A stretch of 64,000 nucleotides of DNA from Clostridia bacterium (GTDB lineage: Bacteria > Bacillota > Clostridia > RGIG6154): the NCBI GenBank assembly GCA_017409875.1, contig JAFQRW010000011.1, positions 124,001 to 188,000 of the forward strand, written 5' to 3'. Under the pieces are notes generated by a model, which saw nothing but the letters and a program-made list of their open reading frames with translations, made no database searches and was not told the origin of the DNA. The position numbers were made by a program, and so were the translations under genes. Shown here piece after piece: positions 31,752-51,081 of this stretch. The first letter of the stretch is position 1. The number at the start of each line of letters is the position of its first letter.

Positions 31752-31783
31752 AAAGAGAGATGGCTAAAGCCATCTCTCTTTTT
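31750..31783 (+). terminator. Terminator after ftsK, shared with the 3' end of spoIVA
   Basis: A 15-bp stem runs AAAAAGAGAGATGGC / GCCATCTCTCTTTTT with loop TAAA. Arms are symmetric, so it can act for ftsK (+) and for spoIVA arriving from the minus strand. Confidence 0.85.
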
Positions 31784-32075
31784 ATAAAATTATGCAAATA
31801 AGTCCTCCGCTGCCTTCGTTAACAATTTTTTGCAAAGTTTCCTGAAGTCTAATCTGCGCATCATCAGGCATCCTGTACAACTTGTTATGCAGGCCTTCAT
31901 TGACAAGTTCATGCAAAGATTTCCCAAAAATATTTGTTTCCCATATCTTTTTTGTGTCAACTTCAAACTCCTGAAGTAAGTATTTAACCAAATCTTCAGA
32001 TTGCTTTTCTGTGCCAACTATTGGACTAACTTCAGTTTCTATATCCGCCCTTATCATATGTATATTATGTAGCAA
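31782..32075 (-). CDS. spoIVA: SpoIVA, C-terminal part (3' piece of interrupted gene)
   Basis: A 97-codon open frame matches the conserved C-terminus of stage IV sporulation protein A: IRADIETEVSPIVG, SEDLVKYLLQEFE, KIWETNIFGKSLHELV, LQETLQKIVNEGSGGLICIIL. It encodes the last 91 residues of SpoIVA (from Met400 of the restored protein) and lacks the ATPase domain. No promoter of its own is seen; the nominal UUG start lies in element sequence. It joins in frame to the 5' piece at 53893-55128 if the intervening DNA is removed at ATATGTATA. In SpoIVA this region is needed for coat basement assembly and SpoVM contact. Confidence 0.93.
   Translation of the reverse strand: MLHNIHMIRADIETEVSPIVGTEKQSEDLVKYLLQEFEVDTKKIWETNIFGKSLHELVNEGLHNKLYRMPDDAQIRLQETLQKIVNEGSGGLICIIL
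32056..32064 (+). repeat. Left 9-bp core of the spoIVA element (attachment site)
   Basis: ATATGTATA is identical and in the same orientation as 53930-53938. In spoIVA reading (minus) it covers Ile-His-Met codons. Element-side flank, after 3 nt: TGTAGCAAACCGAGGT (32068-32083). Confidence 0.88.
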
Positions 32076-32089
32076 ACCGAGGTGTTATA

Positions 32090-33742
32090 TTAAATAATAC
32101 TATAATTAATTTTTAGGTCACGCGCTTTCTTTGAATTAGCTCCTCTAGTTTTTAAAATAGTTCCTGTGGTATTTTCGTATGGCAAATATAAACGAATTTT
32201 TAACTCTATTTCAGTTTCCTCTCTGCCTTGACACACAATAATTTTATCCAGAAAAGAATCAATAAGATTTTTACTCATATTATCGCTAAAACAAAGTTCC
32301 TTTGATATATGCTCTTCCAACTCCCTGTTCCTGTCAATCTGGGCAATGTTTATTTTTTCTTCTGATTCAAGGTCTTTCTTCCTTTTATCAAGTTGGTCAA
32401 GCTGAGAATTAAGGGCATTATTTCGTTGCTCAAATTCTTCATTAGTAATCCTTGAATCCATTACCAAATCCAGAAGTTTTTCCTTTTTCGCATAAATAGC
32501 ACTTATTTCTTTTTCGATTTTATACATTGATTTTTTAATATCCAACCTATTGCCTTTGTACACCTCAATAAGCTCGTTTATAATTCCATGTTTATCCAAT
32601 AAGACACCTTTGTAAATTTCTTCCAAAACCGCATCAATTTCTTCTTTATAAACAAGCGGATTTCTGCATTTATTACCATTTCCGTACTCTTTACAAGTCC
32701 AAAGTTCCTTATTTCCGGATTTATACTTATATACAGTATGATAATAACAAGTGCCGTGCTCGCCACAAATAATCTTACCGGAGTAAAGATACTTATTCTG
32801 ATAACTTGTCTTATCATTGCTTGACATTTTTTCACTTCGTTCTTTGAGTTTGTGATTTGCCTTGTCCCACAGCCTTACAGATACAATAGGAGGCACAGTA
32901 AAATTATCTTCATAAAGAATCCAATCTTCTTCTGGGAGATATTTTATATCATCGTGCCTAAAATCGAGTTTATGAGTTTTATTTCCGCAGTAATACCCCT
33001 TATATTTGGGATTTTTCAAAATCCCACGTATAGTTGAAAAGGAAAACTCCTTACCATTAGTATTTTTGTACCCCAACTCTGATATAGCTTTTGCAATCTG
33101 TCTGATGCCCATATCACAATTTGCATAGAACTCAAAAATTTTCTTCACCATTTCGGCTTCTTTTGGAACTATAACAAGTTTTCCATTATCCTTTTGGTAT
33201 CCCCAGATGCTGTCGTTACCTAAAACAACTCCTTTTTCTATAGAACGTTTAAACCCAAAACTTACACGTTCAGAAACTTTTCGTGATTCATCCTGTGCCA
33301 TCCCGGACATAATGATAAGTCTGAGCTCACCGTCAGGCTCCAAGGTATTTAAGTTATCATTCACAAAAAAAACGCCGACACCATTTTTTAACAACTCTTG
33401 AGTGTATGTGAGGCTGTCTAAAGTGTTACGGGCAAATCTTGAAATTTCCTTTGTAAGTATTAAATCAAATTTTCGGAGCTTGGCGTCTTGTATCATTTTC
33501 AGGAACTCTTCCCTGTTTTTTACACTTGTAGCTGAAATCCCTTCATCGACGTAGCCACAAACCAATGTCCAGTTGACATTATCTTCTACCATTTTTTGAA
33601 AATATGCTTTTTGAGAAGCCAGAGAATGAAGTTGTGCATCTTTTTCAGTTGATACACGAGCATAATATACCACCCTTAAAGGAATGTCAGAAAGGCGTTT
33701 GCCATAGCGTGTCATTTGTTCTTTTATTGTGTAAATATCCAT
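32090..33742 (-). CDS. Large serine recombinase (candidate spoIVA-element excisionase/integrase)
   Basis: A 550-aa large serine recombinase. The N-terminal resolvase catalytic domain has nucleophile Ser31 in YYARVST, then GYVDEGISATS, LTKEISRFARN and the Arg-rich EISRFARNTLDS block. The Recombinase domain (~residues 195-300) contains GIRQIAKAISELGYK and STIRGILKNPKYKG. A zinc ribbon follows (IICGEHGTC, TCKEYGNGNKC), then a coiled coil (~395-480) with many Lys/Glu heptads. It ends 25 bp from the left core. It is coupled to a 53-aa ORF and driven by a SigE-like promoter. It probably catalyses integration and, in the mother cell, excision. Confidence 0.93.
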   Translation of the reverse strand: MDIYTIKEQMTRYGKRLSDIPLRVVYYARVSTEKDAQLHSLASQKAYFQKMVEDNVNWTLVCGYVDEGISATSVKNREEFLKMIQDAKLRKFDLILTKEISRFARNTLDSLTYTQELLKNGVGVFFVNDNLNTLEPDGELRLIIMSGMAQDESRKVSERVSFGFKRSIEKGVVLGNDSIWGYQKDNGKLVIVPKEAEMVKKIFEFYANCDMGIRQIAKAISELGYKNTNGKEFSFSTIRGILKNPKYKGYYCGNKTHKLDFRHDDIKYLPEEDWILYEDNFTVPPIVSVRLWDKANHKLKERSEKMSSNDKTSYQNKYLYSGKIICGEHGTCYYHTVYKYKSGNKELWTCKEYGNGNKCRNPLVYKEEIDAVLEEIYKGVLLDKHGIINELIEVYKGNRLDIKKSMYKIEKEISAIYAKKEKLLDLVMDSRITNEEFEQRNNALNSQLDQLDKRKKDLESEEKINIAQIDRNRELEEHISKELCFSDNMSKNLIDSFLDKIIVCQGREETEIELKIRLYLPYENTTGTILKTRGANSKKARDLKINYSII

Positions 33743-33744
33743 TT

Positions 33745-33906
33745 TTACCCCGCTTTGTTAATTAAAAAATCCTTTGCAAACATATACATTTCTTCGGTTA
33801 TTACTTTCTTGTCATAAAGTCTTTGGTTTACATAAATCTTTAGTTCAGTTTCAAATTTTTTCCGCCTTTCGGTATAAAAATCCTTTGCTTGTACATTTTT
33901 TGACAC
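33745..33906 (-). CDS. 53-aa basic protein coupled to the recombinase (candidate directionality factor)
   Basis: A GTG-initiated 53-aa ORF with AAGGTGG about 6 bp upstream; its TAA ends 2 bp before the recombinase ATG. The protein is highly charged (YTERRKKFE, YVNQRLYDKKVITEEMY) and probably helical; I recognise no family. Serine integrases need a recombination directionality factor to excise, and the SP-beta factor SprB is similarly small. Position and size make this the best RDF candidate, but similar small ORFs precede other clostridial recombinases, so the function is inference. Confidence 0.6.
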   Translation of the reverse strand: MSKNVQAKDFYTERRKKFETELKIYVNQRLYDKKVITEEMYMFAKDFLINKAG

Positions 33907-33936
33907 TACAATTCCACCTTTTTTAATATTTGTACA

Positions 33937-33965
33937 ATAGTATGTTTTTCAGTAATATTTTATAC
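33937..33965 (-). promoter_or_regulatory. SigE-like promoter of the 53-aa ORF and recombinase
   Basis: On the minus strand, -35 GTATAAA (33965-33959), a 14-bp spacer and -10 CATACTAT (33944-33937). The B. subtilis SigE consensus as I recall is KMATATT, 14-15 bp, CATACAMT. The start would lie about 25 bp before the GTG. Match is by eye. Confidence 0.55.
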
Positions 33966-34005
33966 CAACAAAAAAACGAGTTTAAGATAAGATCCAAACT
34001 CGTTT
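33966..34005 (-). terminator. Terminator at the end of the polysaccharide operon
   Basis: Inverted repeat AAACGAGTTT / AAACTCGTTT (minus-strand arms 34005-33996 and 33983-33974) with a 12-nt loop, followed by seven Ts on the minus strand. It separates the cargo from the recombinase unit. Confidence 0.85.
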
Positions 34006-34009: not shown

Positions 34010-35158
34010 CTATCTAAGATTAAGCCTTTTTCTCATTTCGCTTAAACTATCAACCTTTCCAGTTGAAATGGTCTGATTTTGTTTTAGCTCAACAAATGCA
34101 CTATCTTTGTTCGTAAAAATTATTCTAAACCACCTTACAATATGAAAAAACGGATACAAAACAGGTGCTCTGTCAAGGATTTTATAATATTTCTTCATTG
34201 CTTCATAAGGCATAAATACTCGATGGAAAAAGTATTTAAGTTTATTTTGTGAATGTTCATTTATTGCAACCCTGTTTTCCATTGTTCCGTATACTCCACC
34301 ACTTAAAATATACTGTTCCATCATTTTTGTGGTTTCATTATGAGGATATCCATTAGCCCAGACATTTGATAAATGTTCTAATTCCACTGCAAATTTTTCT
34401 AGGTCTGCTTCCTTTAATAATGGCAAAAGCTTCTTTGCGTCTAAATTAAGGTTGTTTTTTAAAAGCCAGATGTCAAAGATGGGTCTTATGCCACATCCAC
34501 CTCTTAAAAAATGATATGCAGCATGGGAAATAATGTGAAAATATAAAAATTCGTCGCTAAGTTGGTAGTGGTTTTCCTTATCCTCAACAGGACGCGCAAA
34601 GTCCCATACTCTTGAAAGCACTCTATTAAAAGCGTAACTACCACTTATTATGTTAAAATGTAGTTCTAAATGAACATCTCCCGGTGTATGCAGCAAAATA
34701 TCATGAGACTTTCGCTTGCCGTCACTTTTATAATTAAGCTTTTGGGTAAGTAATGCCACAATTTCTTCAACGCGTTCCTCTTGAACAAGAATATCTATAT
34801 CACAACTGTTTCTCATCCATTCTTCGGGATAATACTTGCGAATCACAGAACCTTTAAGCGGTAAAAACTTTATTTTTTCCTCTTCAAAGAATTTGCATAT
34901 TCTTTGATATTCGTAATTTTTCTGTTCGTACCTGTAAACGGCTAAAAGCATTGCTCTTGAAAACTTTTTACTTATTTCATCATTTCCAAGTTTCTGGTTT
35001 TTTGAAAGAGCAAAAGCAATGATATGGGCAATGTTGTGGGTTTCGGCAATTTTATAGATTTCTTCTAAGGTTTCATTATTTATGCTGTCTATGACTTCTT
35101 GTTGTTTCCCTGTTACTGCTGACCTTATCAGAGAAAGCATTAGTTCCACAGCCGTCAT
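34010..35158 (-). CDS. Nucleotidyltransferase family protein (NTP_transf_5-like)
   Basis: A 382-aa protein with the uncharacterised nucleotidyltransferase fold. The catalytic block is FLPLKGSVIRKYYPEEWMRNSCDIDILV, with the paired aspartates, followed by HDILLHTPGDVHLELHFN. Such proteins occur in many polysaccharide clusters, with unknown acceptor. It ends the cargo array before the terminator, 23 bp after the fucokinase-like gene. AAAGGAG precedes the start. Confidence 0.82.
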   Translation of the reverse strand: MTAVELMLSLIRSAVTGKQQEVIDSINNETLEEIYKIAETHNIAHIIAFALSKNQKLGNDEISKKFSRAMLLAVYRYEQKNYEYQRICKFFEEEKIKFLPLKGSVIRKYYPEEWMRNSCDIDILVQEERVEEIVALLTQKLNYKSDGKRKSHDILLHTPGDVHLELHFNIISGSYAFNRVLSRVWDFARPVEDKENHYQLSDEFLYFHIISHAAYHFLRGGCGIRPIFDIWLLKNNLNLDAKKLLPLLKEADLEKFAVELEHLSNVWANGYPHNETTKMMEQYILSGGVYGTMENRVAINEHSQNKLKYFFHRVFMPYEAMKKYYKILDRAPVLYPFFHIVRWFRIIFTNKDSAFVELKQNQTISTGKVDSLSEMRKRLNLR

Positions 35159-35181
35159 ATAAAAAATCTCCTTTAATTACT

Positions 35182-38079
35182 TTAAAATTCATCTACAATT
35201 TCACAGTCCCAGACATCCACACCACTATCTTGAAATACTTCATGAAGTCTGTTTTTTAAGTCATCCTTGCTAACACCTTTTTTAAGTATAACCTGTAAGA
35301 ATCCTCCGCCACCCGCACCACAAATCATCTTTCCATCAATCAATTCTTCAATGCTTAAGAAAATCTGATCGATACAAGTATTAGTGCTTCCTGCGTCTAT
35401 ACGCTGACTTTCCTGCCAATGCTCGTTAAGTAGCTTAGCAAAGCCATCAACATTACCCTTTTCTAATTCAAAACGCATCAAAACCGCAATTCTCTGAATG
35501 TTATAGTGAGCATCTACCGATACTAAGTCGTTACAGATGTATTTTGTGATAACTTCTCTTAAAAGATTTCTTGCAAGCCTTCTTTGTCCGGTATAAATTA
35601 TACAAAAACGCTCATTTAATTCCTTCAAGGTTTCTTTTGAAATTACACAAGGTGTGCAAACAATATCCTGTTTAAGTGCCGGCATGCTTGTTAGCATTTT
35701 AATACCAGGAGCAAGTCCGCCAACCTGATCCTGCCACCCTCCGCCTGTGGACATAATCTGTTCCATACAAAGAACCCTCTCGTACAGTTGTTCCCTTGTC
35801 CAACCTAAACCAAAAGCTTCATTAATAGCTTTTACACAAGCTCCTGATAAAATTGAGCTGGTACCAAGCCCACTTCCTTTTGGAATGTTGATAACACGGG
35901 TGTTCATATAAAGTCCGCCACCAAGGTTTGCTAAAATTTCGCTAAGGCAAATTTTTTCTTCCCTTGGCACAACTCCGCAAGCAATCAAAGCAGCTTTGTG
36001 AAGTGCAAATGGGTCTGAAGGGTTGTTGCAAGCCTGAATTTCCTCTATATTATCAAATTCCTTGTATGAGCCGATGTCAGTACTTTCTAAAATTATGTAT
36101 GGCTTATCTATCCTTTTAATTGTAACTTCAACAGGAAATTCACCATTTATAGAAATTGATGCATTCAAAACAGTTCCGCCATTCTCCATGCAGTATGGCG
36201 GAGTGTCACTCCAACCACCGCCCCAGTTCACACGAACAGGCAATCTTACTACAGTTTCATCTTGCGAAAAAGTCATTTCAGCATACCTGATGCCATCTTT
36301 AGATGCTAAAAGCGTTGCATCACAAATGGTTTTTAGAGCAGTTGCCCCCATTTTATCGCTTATTTCACCTTCGGTTAAGAAGCTTAAATAACTGTAAATG
36401 CGAATAAGCTCACTAAATTTACATAAATTGGTAATGTCTAACTTCTCTGCCTTTTTCAGTAAATAATCTATAGTTTTATCATCAATTTTATTGTATTTTT
36501 CTTTGATTTTCAAGGCGGGATATTTATTTCTTATGCCATCTAAAATATCTTCTGCCACCACCTGTTCATACAGGTTTTCCTGCCATGGAAGTATTGCGGT
36601 TACATCTGCCTGATTAAAGCTTTCCATAAGTGAAATCATATCTAAGCCTACTGTGTCGCCATTTACTGTGCGACTTACTGCCTCTTCAATCGAATCACAA
36701 ACAGGAAAAAGTTTTGCTGTCCATAACGGCTCGGCTATTTCATTGCCAAACCACTTATTCTCCTTAGGATTATCTCCCACTCCATACATACGAACAACAA
36801 ATCTGCCGTCACTTAACTTTAATCCGTGCAAAACTGTACCGTCAGCTATCGTTTCACCGCTTAGGGTAACTCCTGAAATAACACAATTTTTGCCAACAGT
36901 ACTTCCACGATGGATTCGGCTGTCTTCAATATAGCTCCCCTTGCCAATTACACTTCTTCTGCTTACATAGCTGTTGGAAATGGCATATTCTTTGGTATCA
37001 ATATTACTAGCAACAACTGACTTCCAACCAAGGAAACGATACTGATCCATTTCCTCTGTCATTAGAGCTAAAAGCTCTTTTGTAGTGCCAAAATGGATGA
37101 AGCTTGCAGGTGATAACTGAATAATTTTCATTTTGTATTTATGTAAAACATCCCAAAGCTTTGTACGACAAGCTGCAAGCTCAGGAGTATAATCACCCTC
37201 CGGTTTTTCGTTGTAATACTGCTCTAAGGTTGAATTTGATGCTAACGGGTATAAAAAGTCCGCATAAAACGACACCTTTGCAGTTTCATTTGCAAAAGAA
37301 TTATAGTCTTCTTCGGTTTGAACCAATTTATAAAGGTCCTCTAAAACCTCTGCATTTAAAATAACTGCACCAGTGTCTATGTCAACATTACCCCTATGAT
37401 CAACAGCTCCAACTTTTGTTAAGGTTTCGACGGTTTGCTTGTGCAAAAATCCGCCAACCATGCCGTTTTCATCCTTAAGGTAAACTCCGTGGTTTTTACC
37501 GGTTTCAACATTTTTCTTAATTGATAGTGCAGCAGCACCTACTCCGTAAAAGTCAATCTGTAATGCATTAAACAGTAGCAGCACATCGCCTGAGCAAACA
37601 AGCATACCTTCACTGATTCTCGTCGCTACCATTGACATGCCAATCATAAACTCATCAAATAAAGTGGAACGACTTCCGTCAGGCAACAAGCGTGGCACAG
37701 GTGAGAAAAGCTTTCCGCAAGCGGAATACTGTGGTACACGCTTGCTATCGCCACCTGAATGTATGCATAAAACACGCTTTCCTCTAAAGGTTTCTTCCTG
37801 TTCTTTTATGTAACGAATAACAGAAAAAGTTGCACCGCCTGAGCCTATACGCTTCCCGCCAAGGTCAGGAATTACCGCAAACTTTGTGCCTTTAGGAACC
37901 AGATTTTTCGCCTGTCTGTGCTTAATTTGCATTTCATAGGCTAAAGCCTGCGTCTCGTTGGATGCAGTCAAAATGACATAGTCCCATACCGTAAGATTGT
38001 CCTTTTTCAGTGTAGATATATAATACAAAAGAGCGTCATTGTAGGATTGTTGTTCAAACATAGTAGTATATGTGTTCAT
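35182..38079 (-). CDS. Bifunctional fucokinase / GDP-fucose pyrophosphorylase-like enzyme
   Basis: A 965-aa fusion. The N-terminal half is a fucose-1-phosphate guanylyltransferase-like domain (GSGGATFSVIRYI near 80; HSGGDSKRVPQYSACGK near 110) followed by a left-handed beta-helix-like stretch. The C-terminal half is a GHMP kinase (RVNWGGGWSDTPPY near 617, GSGLGTSSILSG near 732, CGAGGGGFLQVIL near 921). By analogy with Bacteroides Fkp it would convert L-fucose to GDP-L-fucose in two steps. A heptose pathway is possible, because HddA-type kinases share the GHMP signature. It feeds a glycosyltransferase in this locus. Confidence 0.87.
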   Translation of the reverse strand: MNTYTTMFEQQSYNDALLYYISTLKKDNLTVWDYVILTASNETQALAYEMQIKHRQAKNLVPKGTKFAVIPDLGGKRIGSGGATFSVIRYIKEQEETFRGKRVLCIHSGGDSKRVPQYSACGKLFSPVPRLLPDGSRSTLFDEFMIGMSMVATRISEGMLVCSGDVLLLFNALQIDFYGVGAAALSIKKNVETGKNHGVYLKDENGMVGGFLHKQTVETLTKVGAVDHRGNVDIDTGAVILNAEVLEDLYKLVQTEEDYNSFANETAKVSFYADFLYPLASNSTLEQYYNEKPEGDYTPELAACRTKLWDVLHKYKMKIIQLSPASFIHFGTTKELLALMTEEMDQYRFLGWKSVVASNIDTKEYAISNSYVSRRSVIGKGSYIEDSRIHRGSTVGKNCVISGVTLSGETIADGTVLHGLKLSDGRFVVRMYGVGDNPKENKWFGNEIAEPLWTAKLFPVCDSIEEAVSRTVNGDTVGLDMISLMESFNQADVTAILPWQENLYEQVVAEDILDGIRNKYPALKIKEKYNKIDDKTIDYLLKKAEKLDITNLCKFSELIRIYSYLSFLTEGEISDKMGATALKTICDATLLASKDGIRYAEMTFSQDETVVRLPVRVNWGGGWSDTPPYCMENGGTVLNASISINGEFPVEVTIKRIDKPYIILESTDIGSYKEFDNIEEIQACNNPSDPFALHKAALIACGVVPREEKICLSEILANLGGGLYMNTRVINIPKGSGLGTSSILSGACVKAINEAFGLGWTREQLYERVLCMEQIMSTGGGWQDQVGGLAPGIKMLTSMPALKQDIVCTPCVISKETLKELNERFCIIYTGQRRLARNLLREVITKYICNDLVSVDAHYNIQRIAVLMRFELEKGNVDGFAKLLNEHWQESQRIDAGSTNTCIDQIFLSIEELIDGKMICGAGGGGFLQVILKKGVSKDDLKNRLHEVFQDSGVDVWDCEIVDEF

Positions 38080-38149
38080 AGAATATTCTCCTTTAATATT
38101 TAATACGCTTTGTTAGAAAATTTCTTCTATATCTTAGGTTTTTATATTA

Positions 38150-39145
38150 TCAGACTGTCAATCCGTAAATTGCAGGCACCAAGGCAATAATAATCAAATA
38201 CATAATCAAATCCAACGGGAAAGAGTATTTAAAATAGTCATTGAATTTGTACCCAACACTCATACTCATACCCATAGTTGAACTTGCAAGTGGACAACTG
38301 CAAGCAATACCTGATGCTATGGTAATGCCAAGTGCAAATGCGTATGTATTGAGTCCCATTCTGGGTGCAATAGAAATAAGTATTGGTAGAACAATTAAAA
38401 TTGCAGTTGAATTTGACATAAATTCACTTGTGATCTGAACAAAGGCAACCAAAATGCAGAACAACACAAACGGACTTAAGCTATTACCCACAAGCATCTG
38501 GAATCCGTTTGCAATAATTTCTGTTCCACCTGCAGCTTCAAGAGCTTTTGCAAGACCAAGACATCCGGCGAGTCTTCCCACAATGTTCCAGTTTACAGCT
38601 GCAACTGCTTTTTTCTGTGTAATGCAACCTGTGATAATACAGATTAAAGCCGCAGTTGTAGAAGTAATGGCAATCGGAATCCACTCTGTGATATATAGAA
38701 CAACTGTTATTGCAAAAACAGCTGCCATAATAACCATTTTGACCTTGCTGTATACCTCTGTTTTTTCAGGCATATTGTATTCTACATCTTCATCCGCACG
38801 ATTTCCCCAGATTATTTCACCGCGTATGCGTCCGATAAACAGACAGTATAATAATCCAACAACTAATAATATTCCGGCTACTAATGTAAAGTCAAAAGTC
38901 TTGAATACTCTTAGGCCCGTCTCTTCCAAAAGTCCCTGGGCTGTCATCTGCTGGGTAGAGCCAACAAGCGTTGATGCGCCTCCAATAACACAGGCAATAG
39001 CAATAGGCATTATTAGGTTTTTCGCCTTAATCTCAGGGTTTGCCTTAGAAATTCCTATAATAATCGGTATAAAGATTGCAAGAACTGCCGAGTTTGTTAA
39101 AAATGCCGACATAAAGGCAGATACAATATACGTACCTATCATCAT
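38150..39145 (-). CDS. SLC13/DASS-type permease, C-terminal part (split gene)
   Basis: A 331-aa membrane protein with about nine segments, the larger part of a divalent-anion/Na+ symporter family permease. The frame begins MMIGTYIVSAFMSAFLTNSAVL, which in intact homologues directly follows the KISKGSE block encoded at the end of the preceding frame. The two frames overlap by 4 bp (ATGA). Length plus the upstream part (92 aa) equals a normal permease (about 423 aa). It may be a fresh -1 frameshift or a coupled two-polypeptide arrangement. Its substrate and link to polysaccharide are unknown. Confidence 0.78.
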   Translation of the reverse strand: MMIGTYIVSAFMSAFLTNSAVLAIFIPIIIGISKANPEIKAKNLIMPIAIACVIGGASTLVGSTQQMTAQGLLEETGLRVFKTFDFTLVAGILLVVGLLYCLFIGRIRGEIIWGNRADEDVEYNMPEKTEVYSKVKMVIMAAVFAITVVLYITEWIPIAITSTTAALICIITGCITQKKAVAAVNWNIVGRLAGCLGLAKALEAAGGTEIIANGFQMLVGNSLSPFVLFCILVAFVQITSEFMSNSTAILIVLPILISIAPRMGLNTYAFALGITIASGIACSCPLASSTMGMSMSVGYKFNDYFKYSFPLDLIMYLIIIALVPAIYGLTV

Positions 39146-39420
39146 TTTACTTCGGAGCCTTTTGAAATCTTTATAATCCAGTTGCCAATAGCTAGTGCAA
39201 GGCCTGTTGCTGCAATCGCAGCACCTATAATCATAACTCCGATTGTTAAAATAACCGTGCTTGACGCAAACTGCCCGAAAGCAGTTTTAAAGTCGCACAC
39301 CCCGAAAATAACCATAACTGCACAACCTAAAATTACAGTTGTTGCCATAGGTAGCTTGTCCCAAATAAATAGAACAAGAAAAACCACAAAAATAATTAGT
39401 GAAATTACGTCAATTCCCAT
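39142..39420 (-). CDS. SLC13/DASS-type permease, N-terminal part (split gene)
   Basis: A 92-aa frame with three membrane segments: MGIDVISLIIFVVFLVLFI, MATTVILGCAVMVIFG and STVILTIGVMIIGAAIAATGLAL, followed by GNWIIKISKGSE. It stops in TGA overlapping the next ATG. One extra A in the run of four As before the stop would fuse it in frame to the following protein. Treat the two as one broken gene unless coupling is shown. Confidence 0.72.
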   Translation of the reverse strand: MGIDVISLIIFVVFLVLFIWDKLPMATTVILGCAVMVIFGVCDFKTAFGQFASSTVILTIGVMIIGAAIAATGLALAIGNWIIKISKGSEVK

Positions 39421-39491
39421 TTAATTAATCTTCTTATTTAATTTATGATATTTAAACTTTAAAAAATTACTTTAAGTAAACGCTGCTATCA

Positions 39492-40979
39492 TTAGTTTAA
39501 AACTTTAGATTGTTTCCTCTTTCTATTTAACAATCCCTTAAATAAATCGAAAAGATCCGCTCTGTAAGGTCTAATGAACAGGAGTGCAGCTATACCTATT
39601 ATTGCAATTTTAATAATAAATTCAAGCAAATTAAGATTTGTTTCACTAATAAAGGAAACACACATGCCAGCAACACCTAACAAACCTGCAAAAAATATAT
39701 ACATTGACATCCTGCCTAAACCAAAATCTATATTTTCTGCTTTGTTGCTCATTATAACAGTAATGGTTGAAAGTGTAATCTTGGAAATTATTTGTGCAAC
39801 AACTATACCAAAATATCCAATGAGTCGCGACAAAATGATTGCTACACCGACATTAACAATAACTCCTGTTAACGAACAAACAAATGTAAATTTACTCCAA
39901 TTAAGGTTGTACATCAAAGATTGGACATGCGTATAATAAACAAAAGATATTAGCTGCGACAACACAAGAAATGGGACCATTTTCCACGCCTCAAAATATG
40001 TTTCTTCACACATGATGAAGATAATTTCTTCAGAAAAAACTGCAATCCCTACAGCACAAAATGAGTACAGTGCCATAATCATACAAGACATTTTTTTAAT
40101 CTCTGCACGTCCTTCTTTTCCATATCCCATCTGCTCAACAAACCATGGACGGAATGCAAGATTAATAGATGTTTGTACGAGATTAATAATTGTAGAAAAC
40201 TGAGTAGCCAAACTATATAATCCAGATAATGCATATGTAAGGTTATAGCTAATAACTAGTTTTATGCCATAATTATTTGCACTATTGGAAAGATTGTGTG
40301 GCAAAATTGGCAAAGAATATTTGACAGCCTTTTTTATCAACGCCCAATCTAGACATATTGTCATAACTTTCTTGCGAAGCATTGAAAATATCCCATATAC
40401 AGCAAACAAAAAATTGGTGGTAAACAAAGCAATAATCATACCTTTTGCACTCATCTTTAAAAAGTAAACAAACAGAACAACAGCCAGAGCATGAATTAAA
40501 AGATATATAATGCTGTTAATAGAATAACCTTTACCATTCTGCTGGGCTTGCAGGGTGCTTTGATAAATTAAATAAATTCCTTCGGTACCAAGAGCCAAAA
40601 TTCCCCAAAAAGCATATGGATAAAATGGAATATTTTTAAAAAATATATTTGTAAAAAAATCTTTTCCAAGTATAAAAATTAAGCAAAATACAAGTGCACA
40701 AATACAAGTAAATAAAACTATAGATCCTACAAAACGTTTCTTATTTTCTTTGTCATACTCATTATAAAAACGAATTAAAGCAGCACGTAAGGACAATGTA
40801 ACAACAATACTAAAAGTACTGACAAATGCAATTATTGTAGTAGCAATACCATATTCTGTTGTGCTCATACAATTAGTATATATTGGCACTAAGAAAAAGC
40901 CAACAGCTTTTGAGGCAATCGTACCTATTGAATAAAGCAAAGAATTGTTAAATATTTTTTGCGCGCTTTTATTAGCCAT
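39492..40979 (-). CDS. Polysaccharide flippase (Wzx-like, MATE/MVF superfamily)
   Basis: A 495-aa membrane protein with about 12-14 segments. The start MANKSAQKIFNNSLLYSIG and the run of repeats are those of O-antigen/teichoic-type flippases that move undecaprenyl-linked repeat units across the membrane. ATG 40979 is chosen because GGAGGA lies 7 bp upstream. It overlaps the LicD gene end by 8 bp. Confidence 0.87.
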   Translation of the reverse strand: MANKSAQKIFNNSLLYSIGTIASKAVGFFLVPIYTNCMSTTEYGIATTIIAFVSTFSIVVTLSLRAALIRFYNEYDKENKKRFVGSIVLFTCICALVFCLIFILGKDFFTNIFFKNIPFYPYAFWGILALGTEGIYLIYQSTLQAQQNGKGYSINSIIYLLIHALAVVLFVYFLKMSAKGMIIALFTTNFLFAVYGIFSMLRKKVMTICLDWALIKKAVKYSLPILPHNLSNSANNYGIKLVISYNLTYALSGLYSLATQFSTIINLVQTSINLAFRPWFVEQMGYGKEGRAEIKKMSCMIMALYSFCAVGIAVFSEEIIFIMCEETYFEAWKMVPFLVLSQLISFVYYTHVQSLMYNLNWSKFTFVCSLTGVIVNVGVAIILSRLIGYFGIVVAQIISKITLSTITVIMSNKAENIDFGLGRMSMYIFFAGLLGVAGMCVSFISETNLNLLEFIIKIAIIGIAALLFIRPYRADLFDLFKGLLNRKRKQSKVLN

Positions 40980-41817
40980 CAATTCTTCCTCCATATATTA
41001 TTCTCTCAATGCTATCCAATTCGCCATATCTCTTATCTTCCGGTGGTAATTTCATATAATCACCATACAGGCTTTTTAAATATTCCTGTGTTTTTGCCGG
41101 AACATATCTCATTTCGCCTTCAAATAGCATTTGTTTCGGCTCACCATAGATATCTTCGTTCATACATTGCTTACTATAGGCATAATGACTTGCCATACTA
41201 ACCAGCAAATTTGAACCATTACCATTATATTCCTGCATTATTTTATCCATTTTGCTATTTAAGAATTTAAAAGAAAATGGAGATAAAATAAACTGAACAA
41301 CTTTTTTCGCAAAGAGTTTTATTGGCGAAATGTTATCTTCATAAACATTTGCAAGCTTATATCTATTGATACAATAAATTCTTTTGATTTTTTTTGCCTG
41401 TTTAGCTTGTTTATCTAAGTCTACTGGTGCCTCGTCAAGAGGAAAAATATCTAAATAAATTCCATCATATTTTGTTTTATATTTCCCCTTACCTCTTGTT
41501 TTGTATATAATATGGGTATCTTTTTTTCTAAGAATAGCATGTGGACCCCAGTGATTAGGCTCAGTACTATAGTGTTCATAAAAATAAGGACTTTCTTCCT
41601 TGTCTTCCCAGTACTTACGAAACAGTTCATAATCCTTGCGTCTCATTGCAATATCAATATCTGCATCCCACGGAATAAATCCACCATGCCTAACTGCACC
41701 AAGCAAAGTTCCTGCTATCAAATAATAGACAATTCCAAGGTCTTTACAAATTTTATCAGTTTCATATAACAACTCAAGTTGTGCCAACTGATATTTTCTT
41801 ATATCTTTTTTATCCAT
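40972..41817 (-). CDS. LicD family phosphotransferase
   Basis: A 281-aa protein with the LicD signature YYLIAGTLLGAVRHGGFIPWDADIDIAM, then a catalytic region rich in Lys/Tyr and a C-terminal YMKLPPEDKRY. LicD enzymes transfer phosphocholine, or in some loci phosphoglycerol-type groups, to cell-surface glycans. ATG 41817 is chosen with AGAAAGG upstream; the frame further upstream encodes a duplicated remnant of the Wzy C-terminus. A second LicD gene is at 45829. Confidence 0.88.
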   Translation of the reverse strand: MDKKDIRKYQLAQLELLYETDKICKDLGIVYYLIAGTLLGAVRHGGFIPWDADIDIAMRRKDYELFRKYWEDKEESPYFYEHYSTEPNHWGPHAILRKKDTHIIYKTRGKGKYKTKYDGIYLDIFPLDEAPVDLDKQAKQAKKIKRIYCINRYKLANVYEDNISPIKLFAKKVVQFILSPFSFKFLNSKMDKIMQEYNGNGSNLLVSMASHYAYSKQCMNEDIYGEPKQMLFEGEMRYVPAKTQEYLKSLYGDYMKLPPEDKRYGELDSIERIIYGGRIDG

Positions 41818-41866
41818 AATATACCTTCTTTCTATATATTTATATTGTAAAGTTACAATCTCTAAA

Positions 41867-41920
41867 AAGTATTTACTTAGCCTACCATAGTAACATAGCA
41901 TTGTAACACATCGCAAGCTA
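41867..41920 (-). repeat. Remnant of a Wzy C-terminus (duplicate of 42361-42415)
   Basis: In the minus strand this encodes CVTMLCYYGRLSKYF, matching CVTMLCFYGRFSTYF at the end of the polymerase at 42351. Nucleotide similarity covers roughly 55 bp and is imperfect. A stop codon cuts it off upstream, so it is a fossil. Confidence 0.65.
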
Positions 41921-41953
41921 ATTTTTAATATTTCTCTTGCTTTAAATCCATTT

Positions 41954-42330
41954 TTATGATTTTGCCCTATCTTTTAGTAGTTTTTCATGTTCTAAAATCT
42001 GTGTTTCCGTAAATCTCTTTTTTATTAATTTTGCCGGGACTCCTCCAACAACAGCGTAAGGCTCGATATCTTTCGTTACAACGCTACCTGCCGCAACAAC
42101 CGCACCCCTACCTATAGTAACACCTTTTAATAATGATTTCCAATTTCCAATTTTGCACCAGTGGAATAAATCACAGCATTTGGCCCTATATAAACATTAT
42201 CTCCAAGTGTTATATTATTTCGTCCTGTCACAATAAAATTACTGCCAATTCTGAAATTTTGCCCTACTGAGTGTAACGCCTTAACTAGATTTTTTCTATT
42301 TAAATATCTAATCACACCGTATATATTCAT
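41954..42330 (-). pseudogene. Hexapeptide acyltransferase, internally deleted and frameshifted
   Basis: The first 67 codons (from 42330) encode a left-handed beta-helix acyltransferase start ([41 protein letters not shown]) and then stop. The next frame carries the family's C-terminus: [37 protein letters not shown]. The middle (catalytic His region) is missing, so a deletion joined the two parts out of frame. It probably once acetylated a sugar of the polymer. Confidence 0.85.
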
Positions 42331-42350
42331 ATTATTTTCTCCTTTAATGA

Positions 42351-43448
42351 TTATAAATAAAAGTATGTACTAAACCTGCCGTAAAAACATAGCATTGTAA
42401 CGCACTCCGCTAACATAAACAACTGCATTCCATTACTTTTGCTGAAAACTGCATTATTTTCTGCAAAATACATAGGTGTCATCGCTATTAAAATCTGAAA
42501 CATTCTAAAAAACATTGTGTTATTTGGAACATACGCAATGGTAAATAACAAAACTAACATATACATAATATTAAAAGCAATATACTTTTTATTTTCATAC
42601 TTGGAAATTTTTATAACAATGAATGAAATAACAATAAATGCAAGTAACTGATATGAAAACAAGCGAGTTCTATTAAACATATCTACAAAATTTTCTTCAG
42701 AGTATCTTAAAAATTTATCAACAATAAATCTATAAAGAGGAATACTTCTGAAAAATCTGTCTGTAATTGAAATAACTTTTTCAGAAAAAGCCATTAAAAA
42801 AGGAATAAAAACAGATAGTATTCTTACAGACTTAATGTGGTAAAAAATAATAAGTAACCACATTAATAGAATTATAAATCCTGATGCATGAATATAAGTG
42901 GGCACTATAATCATAAAAAGCGAAAAGGCACGTCCCAAAAAACCGGTTCCTTTTCTAAACCATATATATATCCCTGCTATTCCAATACAATATGCAATAA
43001 AATATCTCATGATTGAAAAAACTATTCCAAAGTTTAAGCAACACAAAAAAAACGAATATATCATAGCAAACTGGTGCTTTGTTAATTCAAAATTATCTGT
43101 AAAATCAAAAAATATTGCTAGCAAAACACCATAGGTACTTAGTAAGGCAACAGGAAAAAATAATGATATAGGAAGATAACTAAAAATTTTCATAATTACA
43201 AAAAAAGCTTGTGAATTTTCATATATATACGATAACCGTTCGTATGCTGCATCAGAACCAAACCGTTTCATAAAAAGTATAGATTCATGAAATCTATACA
43301 TATCTGCTTTTGGTGACGGTTCGTATATAAATGCAAATACTATTAAGGCGGTATATGTGAGTACCTTTATTTGTTTTTTAGAAAATTTACCTGTAAATGC
43401 AAGTAAGCTCAGACCGCCAAAAATAGTAATCAATATAATCCATGTCAT
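42351..43448 (-). CDS. Wzy/EpsG-like polysaccharide polymerase
   Basis: A 365-aa membrane protein with about ten segments, resembling EpsG-type O-antigen polymerases: EPSPKADMYRFHES near residue 50, MRYFIAYCIGIAGIYIWFR, ASGFIILLMWLLIIF, and a long periplasmic-type loop with FMNRTRLFSY-like content. It would join repeat units outside the membrane. Its last 15 codons are duplicated as a remnant at 41867. Confidence 0.78.
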   Translation of the reverse strand: MTWIILITIFGGLSLLAFTGKFSKKQIKVLTYTALIVFAFIYEPSPKADMYRFHESILFMKRFGSDAAYERLSYIYENSQAFFVIMKIFSYLPISLFFPVALLSTYGVLLAIFFDFTDNFELTKHQFAMIYSFFLCCLNFGIVFSIMRYFIAYCIGIAGIYIWFRKGTGFLGRAFSLFMIIVPTYIHASGFIILLMWLLIIFYHIKSVRILSVFIPFLMAFSEKVISITDRFFRSIPLYRFIVDKFLRYSEENFVDMFNRTRLFSYQLLAFIVISFIVIKISKYENKKYIAFNIMYMLVLLFTIAYVPNNTMFFRMFQILIAMTPMYFAENNAVFSKSNGMQLFMLAECVTMLCFYGRFSTYFYL

Positions 43449-43464
43449 TAAAACACTACCTCTT

Positions 43465-44529
43465 TCAATTATTGTCTAGTATTTTGTTATAAATGTCACA
43501 TAAACCCTTTTCAAACTGTTCGATGGAAAAACGTTGATTAATATTTTCCTTTGCATTTGCTCTATATTTGTCAATTCCTGTTTTTAAAATACAGTTTAAT
43601 TTATCAAAAAAGCCATCCACATCTTCAATATCAAACAACTCACCATTATACCCATTCTCAATAATTTCACCATTTCCTCCGACAGGGGTAACAATGCAAG
43701 GCAGACTGTAGTATCCTGCTTCCAGAATAGCGATTGACAAATTTTCCTTATATGTTGCAGAAATATAAACATCTGATGCTGACAAATATCTTCCAACATC
43801 TGAAACCGAACCCATAAAAACAACCTTGCCTTTAGAAATCTGTTCTGCAAGACGCTCTTTCATAGTTTTTAGATATGGTCCATCACCTAATATTAAATAT
43901 TTGTGGTTGTTATTTTTGTCATTTTCTATAATATTAGCAACAACTGCTGCTCCTTTTCCTTCAGTTACTCTTCCTACCGAAACAAGTACAATGTCATCCT
44001 TTTTAAACCCTAAATTCTCTCTCTCAGTTTCTCTCACATACTCAGGCATATCGGATACGCAGTTATGAAGATAATGCATCAAATGCTTAGTATTTTTTGA
44101 TATGTATTTTGATTTTTCTGCAGCTTCACAAACACAAAATACGCCGTCTGCATTCTTTAAGGTCCATCTTTCAAGAATATTTTTGAATAGAAATTTTTTA
44201 AATACACCTATGTTAAAAGAATCATGCTGCATACCATGGACGGTAATTAAGATTTTTGCCTTTCCAAAGATCTTGGCGCACAAAGTTCCAACGAATCCTT
44301 CACTTTGCAATCCATGAATATGAATGATATCCGGAGAATTCTTTTTGAATTCACTAACAATGCGCTTTAAATCTTTAAAACTCATACGGTATATCAATTT
44401 GTTTTGATATACACATGAAAAATTATATTTATCGCTCAAATATTGAGAATTATTTATTAAATTGATATACGTCGTCGGTCCACCAACAGCAGTTGAATTT
44501 GTGTAAAAATGCGTTATATTCCTTTTCAA
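43465..44529 (-). CDS. Glycosyltransferase family 4 (GT-B) protein
   Basis: A 354-aa GT-B glycosyltransferase. The N-terminal half contains NSTAVGGPTTYINL and HIHGLQSEGFVG. The C-terminal half has LVSVGRVTEGKGAAVVA, LILGDGPYLKTM and the donor-binding AILEAGYYSLPCIVTPVGGNGEII. A UUG start at 44529 is preferred with CAAGGG 8 bp upstream; the GTG three codons earlier overlaps that ribosome site. It adds a sugar to the lipid-linked repeat. Confidence 0.88.
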   Translation of the reverse strand: MKRNITHFYTNSTAVGGPTTYINLINNSQYLSDKYNFSCVYQNKLIYRMSFKDLKRIVSEFKKNSPDIIHIHGLQSEGFVGTLCAKIFGKAKILITVHGMQHDSFNIGVFKKFLFKNILERWTLKNADGVFCVCEAAEKSKYISKNTKHLMHYLHNCVSDMPEYVRETERENLGFKKDDIVLVSVGRVTEGKGAAVVANIIENDKNNNHKYLILGDGPYLKTMKERLAEQISKGKVVFMGSVSDVGRYLSASDVYISATYKENLSIAILEAGYYSLPCIVTPVGGNGEIIENGYNGELFDIEDVDGFFDKLNCILKTGIDKYRANAKENINQRFSIEQFEKGLCDIYNKILDNN

Positions 44530-44581
44530 TGTTATCACCCTTGATTTATCATTTAATATATTTTATTTATTAAATCAACGT

Positions 44582-45796
44582 TCAACTGCTTACTTTAGCA
44601 AAATCTAGCATTCTCTTTGTTTGCACAACATCATTTTTGTTTTCAATAACAAACTCTTGTCCATTTTCTTTGCTATTTCCGTTATCCTTAGCAAATTTTA
44701 CAGCGTTTACAATCCCTTCTGAAGAAAAATTTTCTATTGGTATCATATACTTATAATAATCTTCGGGAATTCCTGCCATTATAACAGAAGCCACTTTATT
44801 TCCTGTAGCTAAATATTCAAACACCTTTGACGGGAAACAATATGGAGCATAAGGTGCGTCAGGCACCCGGATATGAAGAAGCAAGTCTGCCTGCATTTCA
44901 AGTTCTAAAACTTCCTCTCTTGTATCAAGACAGCCTAAATATTTAATTCTGCTGTCTTCTTTTGCTGCAGCATTAACTTTTTCTACATAATTGCCTTTTC
45001 CTGTAAGCCAAAGTTCAAGGTCTCTGTCCGGCAAGTCTTTCATTGCCTGTAATAGCTGAGGCATTCCTCTTGCAACATCAACAGCTCCAGAATACATCAT
45101 AACAAAGTTCTCGTTAGGTTTCTTTTTTTCAAAATTTTTAACAAAATTAATGTCTTCATTGCTTATTGAGCCTTCCATAAGCATCCACTTTTCAGGCGAT
45201 AAACAAAAATAGTCTGCCATAGGTGCTGAATATAAAACAAATCCGTCAATGACTGGGAATAGTCTTTTCGTTTTTATTTCAGAGCGCTTTTTCAGATAGT
45301 TCCAAACCTTGCTGTTTTTCATATTAACAAACATAGGAATGTCAGGAATGATAGTATAAATTCTACAATTTGGTATGTGATTTTTAAGCCAGATGGCAGC
45401 TTTAATTTTTCCAATGCCAACACCGTACGTATAAACTACAAGCTCGTCCACATTTTTGTTGTTTTCATACCACCTTTTTACTTCTTTTTTATACGCTTTA
45501 CCCCTGAGAAATCTATTTATATATGGAAAATTACAAAATCCGCTATGTACATCATAGGTTCCGGCTTTACGTTGAAATTTTTCTTGTTTGATAAACATCT
45601 CAGCCTTAGGAAAAGAAAGGCCTGAAATGACGCCAATTGTATCCATTGTATAGTCAGTGTTTTCTATGTTTACATCTATTCCGCCTACAAGACTTCTTTC
45701 ACTAGTAAATGCAGACAACTGTCCTGTGCTTTTTGTTGGCAAATTTGCAAATTGCTCATCCGTCATATAAGAGCCAATCCAAATAATCTTTTTCAT
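44582..45796 (-). CDS. Glycosyltransferase (GT-B fold)
   Basis: A 404-aa protein with a GT4-like C-terminal half: MMYSGAVDVARGMPQLLQAM, LTGKGNYVEKV, LDTREEVLELEMQADLLLHIRVP and PSKVFEYLATGNKVAS. The N-terminal half (MKKIIWIGSYMTDEQFANLP) is the type found in capsular clusters and is less conserved. The sugar is unknown. It lies 32 bp after a LicD gene. Confidence 0.82.
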   Translation of the reverse strand: MKKIIWIGSYMTDEQFANLPTKSTGQLSAFTSERSLVGGIDVNIENTDYTMDTIGVISGLSFPKAEMFIKQEKFQRKAGTYDVHSGFCNFPYINRFLRGKAYKKEVKRWYENNKNVDELVVYTYGVGIGKIKAAIWLKNHIPNCRIYTIIPDIPMFVNMKNSKVWNYLKKRSEIKTKRLFPVIDGFVLYSAPMADYFCLSPEKWMLMEGSISNEDINFVKNFEKKKPNENFVMMYSGAVDVARGMPQLLQAMKDLPDRDLELWLTGKGNYVEKVNAAAKEDSRIKYLGCLDTREEVLELEMQADLLLHIRVPDAPYAPYCFPSKVFEYLATGNKVASVIMAGIPEDYYKYMIPIENFSSEGIVNAVKFAKDNGNSKENGQEFVIENKNDVVQTKRMLDFAKVSS

Positions 45797-45828
45797 AATC
45801 TAATATCCTTTATAATAAATAGTTAATA

Positions 45829-46665
45829 TTACCACTCTTTTGTATATTCTCTATAATCCTTGCAGCAATCATAGATATATGCGTGGACATCAGCTTTTTG
45901 TTGCTCTTTGCTTGGTAACTTCATATAATTGCCATATCGTCCGCTTAAATAATTCTTAATGTTCTGTGGACCCATAAGCATACAATCCTCAAACTGAATA
46001 TCCGCAGGTTTTTCAAAACACTCTCTTTCAAACACGCCCTGACTGAGCTTTGCCTTGGTGATATAATAACTCCAAACATAATCCTCAGTAAGATTATCAT
46101 ATTTATAAATATTCTTATAGAATTTGCGAAGTAAAATCTTGTTTGGGAGAAGTTTCATAATTCTTGCAAGAATTTCCTGTTTTATATTCTTTGGTTTCCA
46201 GCCTCTCTGGATTAATGCGAAAAGCACAACATATTTTGACATATTGTAAATTCGTTTTTGAATATTTTGTTTACCCTCTGGAAGCTTATGCAGAATCATA
46301 ATATCAACATAAATTCCAAGGTGCAAATCTTTTCGTCCCAACATAGATTTTTCAATAAAGGTAGTTCCGTTCATGCGCACTTTGGCATATTCAAGATAAT
46401 CAGGTGTTGTGCGCCATTCCTGAAGGACAAAGGTTTCGTTTTTTTCTTTATCTAAAGCTCCTTTAAATTTTTCGTACTGATCAGGGGTCATAAAGATGTC
46501 AAGGTCATCATCCCAAGGAATAAAGCCACCGTGCCTTACAGCACCAAGAGCTGTTCCTCCCATAATAAAATAGGTGATATCATTTTGTCTGCATACCTTA
46601 TCTATGTATTTCATTATTTCAAGAATTTTCATCTGTACGTCCCTTACGGCCTGTTCCTTCTCCAT
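45829..46665 (-). CDS. LicD family protein (second copy)
   Basis: A 278-aa LicD protein with YFIMGGTALGAVRHGGFIPWDDDLDIFM, FVLQEWRTTPDYLEYAKVRM and NYMKLPSKEQQ at the C-terminus. It is divergent from the LicD at 40972, so they may act on different acceptors. GGAGGAGAAAG precedes the ATG. Its role would be adding phosphocholine or a related group. Confidence 0.87.
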   Translation of the reverse strand: MEKEQAVRDVQMKILEIMKYIDKVCRQNDITYFIMGGTALGAVRHGGFIPWDDDLDIFMTPDQYEKFKGALDKEKNETFVLQEWRTTPDYLEYAKVRMNGTTFIEKSMLGRKDLHLGIYVDIMILHKLPEGKQNIQKRIYNMSKYVVLFALIQRGWKPKNIKQEILARIMKLLPNKILLRKFYKNIYKYDNLTEDYVWSYYITKAKLSQGVFERECFEKPADIQFEDCMLMGPQNIKNYLSGRYGNYMKLPSKEQQKADVHAYIYDCCKDYREYTKEW

Positions 46666-46690
46666 CTTTCTCCTCCAACGCTTTAAATTA

Positions 46691-47527
46691 TCAAAGTTTT
46701 TTTGCCACGTAATAGTATTTACTCATAAATTTTTTGATAAACGGTATTTTGCTAAGTGCTTTCACAGTTTTTCGTATAACATTAAAAATTACTTTCCGTA
46801 CTGCATGCTTGCCCTTTGAAGAAGTCCATCTATGAGGATGTGTACTAATTATAACAGAGCTTTCTCCTTTCAAAATCAGCTCCAACACCTTATCCAGTTC
46901 ACCAAGAAAAACATCCTTTTCTTTGCTTGGGACAATGTCGTTATTTATAGGATCAAATATGATCTGAAATCCAAGCCCTGCATCGGAAATATATGAATAG
47001 TCCGTATTTGCCATTTCTTTAAAGTTTACCATAATATCTGCAACATCAGGGTATTTTTCTGTAACTTTTTCTGCACGGAAAAAGTCACGATTTGATGTAT
47101 AACCTTTTCGTTCAACCACAGGGTTACCGTGCTGACAAACAGTTTTGATTTTAAAACCGCTGTTCTCGAAAATCACCTTGTTTTTTTCATACAATTCTAT
47201 TGCTTGCTCCAAATCCCCGCCTGTTGCATCCATTACATCATAGTGATAAGAGACTTCATGACCGAGATTTTTGATTTCATTCAGTATTTTTATATTCTTT
47301 TCATTGTCTAAAAGGTATGCCTGAACATAATATGATCCTTTATGTTCATACTTATTTTCAATCTGTGCTAATTTTAAAGCTTTTTCAAGGGATGTTTCCA
47401 CATCGTGCTTTAAAACAAAGTATTTATCCTCAGATTTGTCAAAAAGAGAGCGAGCTGTAATACTATGTTTTCCGTTTTTATGTAAATTTTCGCAAAATTC
47501 TTCCCATTCTGAATAAATAAAATGCAT
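46691..47527 (-). CDS. Polysaccharide-deacetylase-like (NodB-fold) protein
   Basis: A 278-aa soluble protein. KYFVLKHDVETSLEKAL, then GHEVSYHYDVMD and CQHGNPVVERKG, SVIISTHPHRW resemble a NodB-type TIM-barrel with its Asp/His metal ligands. I cannot assign a substrate. Its ATG overlaps the preceding cytidylyltransferase TAA by one base, so it is translationally coupled to it. Confidence 0.65.
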   Translation of the reverse strand: MHFIYSEWEEFCENLHKNGKHSITARSLFDKSEDKYFVLKHDVETSLEKALKLAQIENKYEHKGSYYVQAYLLDNEKNIKILNEIKNLGHEVSYHYDVMDATGGDLEQAIELYEKNKVIFENSGFKIKTVCQHGNPVVERKGYTSNRDFFRAEKVTEKYPDVADIMVNFKEMANTDYSYISDAGLGFQIIFDPINNDIVPSKEKDVFLGELDKVLELILKGESSVIISTHPHRWTSSKGKHAVRKVIFNVIRKTVKALSKIPFIKKFMSKYYYVAKKL

Positions 47528-47946
47528 TATTTTTCAGCCAGCCTTTCTCTTAAAATTGTTGAGGAAATACCATCTGTATGGTCTAAATAAACTACCTCAC
47601 AACCAATTTCAGCGAATTCTTTTTCGTATTTATTCCAGGCCTCAGTTCCCTTCCAGTCAGAACCTACAAAAACCGCATCTGCATTAGCCTTGCGCACAGC
47701 CGTTAGCTTATCCATATCGTTTTGGGGAATAACTTCATCCACATATCGTATAGCTTCCACAATAGCCATTCTTTCCTTTTCACAGATAATAGGATATTTA
47801 TTTTTTCTGATAAAACTAAGTTCGTCCGTTGTGACTCCAACAATTAGGTATTCACATTGTTCCTTTGCTCTTCTTAGAATATTTAGGTGACCAATATGAA
47901 ACATATCATATACACCGGTTGTGTAACCAATTTTATATTTTTTCAT
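47527..47946 (-). CDS. Glycerol-3-phosphate cytidylyltransferase-type enzyme, copy 1
   Basis: A 139-aa TagD-like nucleotidyltransferase. GYTTGVYDMFHIGHLNILRRA carries the HxGH motif (HIGH), and the typical RxxxxS-like end is SSTILRERL. It would make CDP-glycerol or another CDP-polyol. Its first ~36 codons and leader are nearly identical to copy 2 (48009-48428), and the rest differs. Copy 1 has PQNDMDKLTAVRKANADAVFVGSDWKGTEAW. Confidence 0.9.
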   Translation of the reverse strand: MKKYKIGYTTGVYDMFHIGHLNILRRAKEQCEYLIVGVTTDELSFIRKNKYPIICEKERMAIVEAIRYVDEVIPQNDMDKLTAVRKANADAVFVGSDWKGTEAWNKYEKEFAEIGCEVVYLDHTDGISSTILRERLAEK

Positions 47947-47977
47947 TTTTAGTTACCTCCTTAGTCGCATTTTTTAT
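47834..47977 (-). repeat. 144-bp tandem-type repeat, copy 1 (cytidylyltransferase start plus leader)
   Basis: This matches 48316-48459 at an offset of 482 bp with few differences. It includes the ATG, ribosome site and the end of the GT2-derived leader. Confidence 0.85.
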
Positions 47978-48007
47978 ATGTCTTTTTAGTCCGATAATTT
48001 TTATCAT
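47933..48007 (-). pseudogene. Remnant of GT2 3' end between the cytidylyltransferase copies
   Basis: A 24-codon frame reads IIGLKRHIKNATKEVTKNEKI. It is the GT2 C-terminus (at 48415) with the internal segment between LKRHI and KNATKEV deleted. It shows that the duplicated unit included the end of GT2. Confidence 0.8.
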
Positions 48008-48008
48008 A

Positions 48009-49272: not shown

Positions 49273-49284
49273 CCCGCATCCCCC

Positions 49285-51064: not shown

Positions 51065-51081
51065 ATCGCCCTAACACCCTT

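Follow-up and report, generated by a model that had tools for sequence, protein, structure and literature searches.

A large serine recombinase element within spoIVA

The DNA analysed here, a stretch of 64,000 nucleotides from a Clostridia bacterium that we refer to as the window, contains a 21,874-bp element of polysaccharide genes that splits spoIVA and has a large serine recombinase gene at one end. All window features described below lie on the minus strand. The 5' piece of spoIVA (53893..55149, with its ATG at 55128) encodes the ATPase domain and most of the middle domain (PF09547, 2.8e-120; PF20438, 3.3e-60), and the 3' piece (31782..32075) encodes SpoIVA_C (PF20439, 2.6e-39; TIGR02836, 2.9e-45). 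The same 9-bp crossover core, TATACATAT, is found at the junction with the 3' piece (32056..32064) and at the junction with the 5' piece (53930..53938), and when the flanks are joined at this core they yield an uninterrupted SpoIVA of 490 aa that contains APSIHMIRADIETEV. Inside the element, the cores are flanked by the arms ACCTCGGTTTGCTAC (32069..32083) and GTAACAAACAGAGGT (53910..53924), which form an inverted repeat, the form expected of the attP site of a serine integrase. Similar arms (ACTTCTGTTTG and CAAACAGAAGT) occur in relatives, ACTTCTGTTTG being present at L041, L042, L043 and L044. As far as sequence alone can establish them, the element, its cores and its attP-like arms are demonstrated. 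With a mother-cell gene that is split at a short repeated core and is repaired in frame on joining, the window element has the structure of a sporulation gene-intervening element of the skin, SP-beta, gin and yin kind. Elements of this kind, with an integrase and a recombination directionality factor (RDF), are already known.

The cargo (34010..53698) comprises genes for a nucleotidyltransferase, a fucose pyrophosphorylase/kinase, a citrate/sulfate-type transporter, a flippase, glycosyltransferases, a sugar transferase and an aminotransferase; it represents polysaccharide biosynthesis and not a phage. Precise excision (32056-53938) would leave the mother cell without any of the polysaccharide cluster. 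In three genomes from the family of the window organism (G001-G003), spoIVA is uninterrupted, with frames of 491-515 codons, and the insertion in the window is therefore secondary. The recombinase itself (32090..33742) is 550 aa long, with Resolvase, Recombinase and zinc-ribbon domains. Its nearest NCBIfam models are those of the SCC recombinases CcrB and CcrC, at 124.6 and 117.3 bits, each against a cut-off of 900, and so it cannot be counted as an SCC member. The window genome encodes a second serine recombinase (G000:C16:12986-14344), which has a larger protein gene upstream and no member of the small-ORF family described below.

Immediately upstream of the recombinase gene is a 53-aa ORF with a GTG start (33745..33906; translation MSKNVQAKDFYTERRKKFETELKIYVNQRLYDKKVITEEMYMFAKDFLINKAG), which we propose to encode an RDF. 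A first-pass annotation had singled out this ORF as a candidate excision switch, and the features that it described are all present: the ORF has its own Shine-Dalgarno sequence (AGGTGG, 33914..33919, 7 nt 5' of the GTG), 2 bp separate its stop codon (33747-33745) from the recombinase ATG, which begins at 33742, 38% of the residues in its product are charged (9 K, 3 R, 3 D and 5 E), and there is no second sense ORF of at least 40 aa between the recombinase and the upstream gene. Since a terminator-like hairpin (33974..34005), lying between the unit and the upstream nucleotidyltransferase gene, and then a sigma-E-like promoter precede the small ORF, this ORF and the recombinase gene constitute a single unit, set apart from its surroundings. 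At the base composition of the window, the probability expected for an open frame of ~66 codons is about 0.008. Homologues upstream of related recombinases align from the same start (MTKTVQ.. versus MSKNVQ..); these homologues and the pN/pS values given below, both sequence-derived, are far stronger grounds than this length probability for stating that the ORF is more than a chance frame.

The small-ORF family and its partner recombinases

A scan with the recombinase gave 80 related loci. In the sense strand upstream of 60 of these, a hidden Markov model (HMM) detects a member of the small-ORF family (E<0.01), which bears out the conservation beside other recombinases that the first-pass annotation had suggested looking for. 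The HMM was grown from five sequences and found 37 of the 80 in its first round, before most members had served for training; in the antisense frames of the same upstream stretches it found nothing better than E=5. Approximately 20 of the 80 loci have no confident member, and several of these have a divergent small ORF. One divergent group is linked to the family by profile comparison (E 5.7e-5), while the homology of the small ORFs of L065, L082, L094, L097 and L108 to the main family is marginal (hhalign E 0.004) and their predicted fold is the same. The family, with a consensus of approximately IxxxxNKxLYxKxxIxExxYxxxxxxxxK, accompanies recombinases at spoIVA, sigK, feoB or elsewhere, in many gut and soil Clostridia. 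The coupling to the recombinase that the first-pass annotation had emphasised stands for the window, with its 2-bp gap, but strict 2-bp coupling is not general: the distance varies from -14 bp, with overlaps of -4 to -14 bp in the sigK and other groups, to ~1.5 kb with cargo between the two genes.

As estimated from a median pN/pS of 0.31 over 101 pairs (0.10 for the nearest pair, L039/L041), the small ORF is under purifying selection. Small-ORF and recombinase distances are correlated (Mantel r 0.87, n=59), which shows that the pair travels together and does not give the reason. The window protein is predicted by AlphaFold2, with a mean pLDDT of 91, to fold as a two-helix hairpin of residues 4-32 and 38-52; structure prediction was another check that had been suggested. 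Searches with the small ORF of Pfam, NCBIfam and PHROG returned only sub-threshold noise, tblastn against phage records gave no match, and PDB sequence and fold searches with the protein gave no convincing match; fold matching is uninformative here because a two-helix hairpin is too simple. A weak resemblance to SHOCT_2 was seen in nine of 45 members (best 3e-4), below the membership thresholds, and the window protein matched neither Pfam SHOCT nor SHOCT_2 and is not a member; the likeness lies in the short helical sequence that SHOCT and SHOCT_2 share with the small-ORF family.

Comparison of seven spoIVA elements, six complete and one (L040) nearly so, left the small ORF and the recombinase as the only shared genes, the remaining shared frames being alternative frames over the recombinase. 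An RDF would be expected to be retained in this way, with its integrase, in a minimal gene set; being encoded in the same element as the putative cognate recombinase (2 bp upstream in the window; 60 of the 80 loci), the small ORF also fulfils that expectation of an RDF. The smallest spoIVA element, 3.4 kb (L044), has just one other gene. The small ORF remains intact even where 218 bp or a cargo gene of 1.3 kb come between it and the recombinase. In Ruminiclostridium the intervening gene encodes a dockerin-bearing GH53 protein, and in R. papyrosolvens the small ORF lies ~1.5 kb upstream of the recombinase with this gene between. The cargo of the R. papyrosolvens spoIVA element (L042:5917-9878) consists of AgrB, a GHKL kinase and this dockerin-bearing GH53 galactanase. 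At L047, an element of ~16 kb in one split spoIVA encodes two recombinases that are each accompanied by a separate small ORF, and its 3' junction is at a different position in spoIVA than that of the window's group.

A two-piece spoIVA is present in approximately 20 further genomes that encode a related recombinase. When the genomes of 22 loci were searched for both pieces, 11 (G100, G101, G102, G103, G104, G107, G110, G111, G113, G117 and G120) had them apart on one contig, 3.4 to 109 kb from each other, and most of the remainder had them on different contigs; in G106 and G115 this search did not find the 3' piece. Cultured organisms with a two-piece spoIVA include Ruminiclostridium papyrosolvens, R. 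sufflavum, Anaerovirgula multivorans and Papillibacter cinnamivorans, the last with its pieces on different contigs. In A. multivorans (G110, C28:24162-132933) the pieces are ~109 kb apart, and the element is of prophage size. Among 391 surveyed genomes of the class, further splits were found in G158, G222, G387, G383, G329 and G197, of which G158 is a complete chromosome of 4,068,724 bp. All six have a small-ORF match, that of G197 being weak (E 0.005). Two congeners of the Ruminiclostridium group (G315 and G029) have an unbroken spoIVA and lack the small-ORF family, and three genomes (G091, G297 and G343) have short spoIVA 3' frames without small ORF or recombinase. In G118 an intact spoIVA accompanies a split copy, but we do not accept this apparent empty site: with an identity of only 74%, the two spoIVA copies come from different species in a mixed bin.

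Classified by flanking gene, the 81 modules (the 80 loci and the window) divide into 23 at spoIVA, 12 at sigK, 19 at feoB and 27 elsewhere; assignment to feoB is by proximity, without a mapped insertion point. The sigK-splitting, skin-like elements (L048, L051, L053-L058, L060, L062, L063 and L069) have recombinases of the same clade and small ORFs of the same family, and their hosts are Flavonifractor, Pseudoflavonifractor, Agathobaculum and relatives. The neighbours of feoB, which encodes a ferrous iron transporter, include L070, L074, L075, L085, L093, L096, L100, L113, L114, L117 and L118. At L052, L065, L068 and L108, and for the second L047 recombinase, the recombinase frame continues in frame into the spoIVA 3' piece, giving fused open frames of ~628-643 codons; the integrase therefore has no stop codon of its own when integrated.

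Promoters of the small ORF and the recombinase

The sigma-E consensus is KMATATT-N14-CATACAHT. Data from C. difficile agree with it on ATA at -35 (PMC3789822). The putative promoter of the window small ORF, GTATAAA-N14-CATACTAT (33937..33965), whose -10 ends 30 nt before the GTG, resembles this consensus (position weight matrix, PWM, p=0.003-0.005), and the best sigma-A match there has four mismatches. The sigma-E-like promoter of spoIVA itself, TCATATT-N14-CATATATA (55161..55189; PWM p=0.01), scores similarly.

We scanned the 100 nt upstream of each small ORF with the PWM against dinucleotide shuffles. A sigma-E-like promoter (p<=0.05) precedes the small ORF in 10 of 15 spoIVA elements and all 11 sigK elements, a strong sigK-group example being TCATAGT-N14-CATAACTT, against three of 19 feoB elements and none of 19 others. 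Elements in sporulation genes thus have such a promoter in 21 of 26 cases and those elsewhere in three of 38 (Mann-Whitney p 2e-8). Because the PWM weights were hand-set from the consensus and the loci are phylogenetically related, these p values overstate independence. At the level of sequence we consider the promoter pattern, like the conserved pair and the selection on the small ORF, to be demonstrated; expression under sigma-E in the mother cell is our inference.

In the window, this test cannot single out the small ORF because both genes share one promoter. In the Ruminiclostridium elements, the genes are separated. A perfect TTGACA-N16-TATAAT lies before the recombinase in four of these five elements (the G158 element has no sigma-A promoter there), while no small ORF of the five has a sigma-A match with fewer than three mismatches. 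A sigma-E-like match with p<0.05 precedes two of these five small ORFs (L043 and L145), and the other three matches are weak, with p 0.07-0.14.

Proposed function of the small protein

We consider it probable that the 53-aa protein acts as RDF for the large serine recombinase encoded next to it, a function that is inferred, without biochemistry or evidence of excision. The candidacy now has support from the conserved pairing, the minimal set of shared genes, purifying selection, the sigma-E pattern and the Ruminiclostridium layout, although the function itself has not been measured. We know of no sequence signature common to the RDFs of large serine integrases. The first-pass annotation had drawn its precedent from SprB, the 58-aa RDF of SP-beta. 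That SprB is also small is correct, but it has no detectable similarity to the family (hhalign E 0.33, BLASTP E 1.8), so the small ORF is not a SprB homologue, and by analogy of layout the closer precedent is Skr. This 64-aa protein is the RDF of skin in B. subtilis, and its gene immediately precedes spoIVCA within a unit under sigma-E control (PMC6957869). As in the window, the element splits a mother-cell gene, and the gene for the small protein comes just before that for a large serine recombinase and forms a single unit with it, which in the window is of putative sigma-E type; the overlapping reading frames of skr and spoIVCA recur in the sigK group of our family. The target, sigK, and the length of Skr differ.

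Other systems resemble the Ruminiclostridium elements or the window element in part. In SP-beta, a prophage that splits a spore gene, the integrase SprA is constitutive and the RDF has a mother-cell promoter (PMC4191935), as proposed for Ruminiclostridium; however, SP-beta differs in being an active phage whose sprB lies at the opposite end to sprA (NC_001884), and SprA is 24% identical to the window recombinase over part only. In the C. difficile skin element, the CD1231 recombinase is likewise constitutive and its small RDF, CD1234, is controlled by sigma-E, complex formation having been shown (PMC5025042). CD1234 differs in its length of 72 aa, in the sigK target and in not being encoded next to the recombinase. 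The gin element in gerE, with the recombinase GirC and its 42-aa RDF GirX (PMC5595907), is like the window element a non-phage insertion in a mother-cell gene, with a 9-bp shared core and inverted arms, whereas it belongs to Bacillus, has three recombinases and has girX away from its recombinase gene.

Based on these observations, we propose the following model. During sporulation, the sigma-E-type promoter would turn on the small ORF-recombinase unit in the mother cell. The helical-hairpin protein would then bind the recombinase, probably on or near the coiled-coil/zinc-ribbon region, and turn its activity from integration (attP x attB) to excision (attL x attR). A structure of the SP-beta integrase-RDF complex has been published (PDB 9DXD; PMC12412911), and in AlphaFold models several unrelated RDFs sit on one and the same region of the recombinase (PMC10747680), which makes an unrelated helical protein acting there plausible. 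The element would leave as a circle, so that spoIVA would be complete when the coat is assembled, and would stay in place in the chromosome of the forespore. Where relatives have the two genes apart, expression of the recombinase appears to be constitutive, and timing would rest with the small ORF. Several points count against the RDF reading. Three Ruminiclostridium elements have weak sigma-E matches, the G158 element has no sigma-A promoter, the protein is unlike SprB in sequence, and approximately 20 of the 80 loci are without a confident family member. The nearest curated models of the recombinase, albeit far below cut-off, are CcrB and CcrC, and CcrAB excise without an RDF (PMC5595907); in addition, the family occurs beside feoB recombinases, where excision is unknown.

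An alternative is a general partner of the recombinase, a stabiliser or co-factor needed in both directions that does not switch directionality. In its favour, the small ORF is found beside related recombinases whatever the target gene, the correlated distances fit, and obligate pairing suits a subunit as well as a switch. We nevertheless think this unlikely. Characterised large serine integrases integrate alone. Four Ruminiclostridium recombinases have their own consensus sigma-A promoter and the small ORFs have none, which is odd for an obligate subunit, and this separate-promoter layout is that of two known RDF systems (PMC4191935, PMC5025042).

The small ORF might instead be a regulator of the element, such as a transcription regulator, or an accessory factor outside recombination, and the lack of a significant match to known families or the PDB, beyond the weak SHOCT_2 likeness, leaves room for this. 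However, apart from the recombinase gene, it alone is present in every element compared, and in the literature searched all published sporulation intervening elements with a tested mechanism need an RDF for excision; we regard such a role as very improbable. Harder still to credit is a leader ORF whose sole purpose is to couple translation of the recombinase or to control its expression. The spacing in the window and the sigK-group overlaps are what such a leader would have, but selection acts at the amino-acid level, motif and fold are conserved across families, and the ORF stays intact when separated from the recombinase.

With the RDF reading preferred, we judge the small-ORF family, from its sequences, to be a new RDF family unrelated to SprB; the sequences of Skr, CD1234 and GirX were outside this comparison. 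The target also seems to be new. Literature searches, which most subscription papers were beyond the reach of, found no report of a split spoIVA, to our knowledge a universally conserved early coat morphogen. If our reading is true, spoIVA joins the spore genes that are rebuilt through DNA excision. On balance, and with some reservation, we favour a wider proposal: that the small ORF founds a large RDF family, and that one portable integrase-RDF module, through an acquired sigma-E promoter, has been wired into the splitting of spoIVA and sigK across Clostridia, with relatives at housekeeping genes such as feoB. In many spore-formers spoIVA would so have become conditional on excision, and cargo of unrelated kinds (capsule genes, agr genes and a cellulosomal galactanase) would travel with the module and be lost from the mother cell. 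RDFs in the literature searched were found singly, whereas this family would give ~60 predicted integrase-RDF pairs together, useful for reversible DNA writing and for testing the evolution of directionality control. Finally, for Clostridium cellulolyticum H10, a tractable non-pathogen, spoIVA appears among the annotation omissions (PMC3533761), which splitting of the gene may explain.
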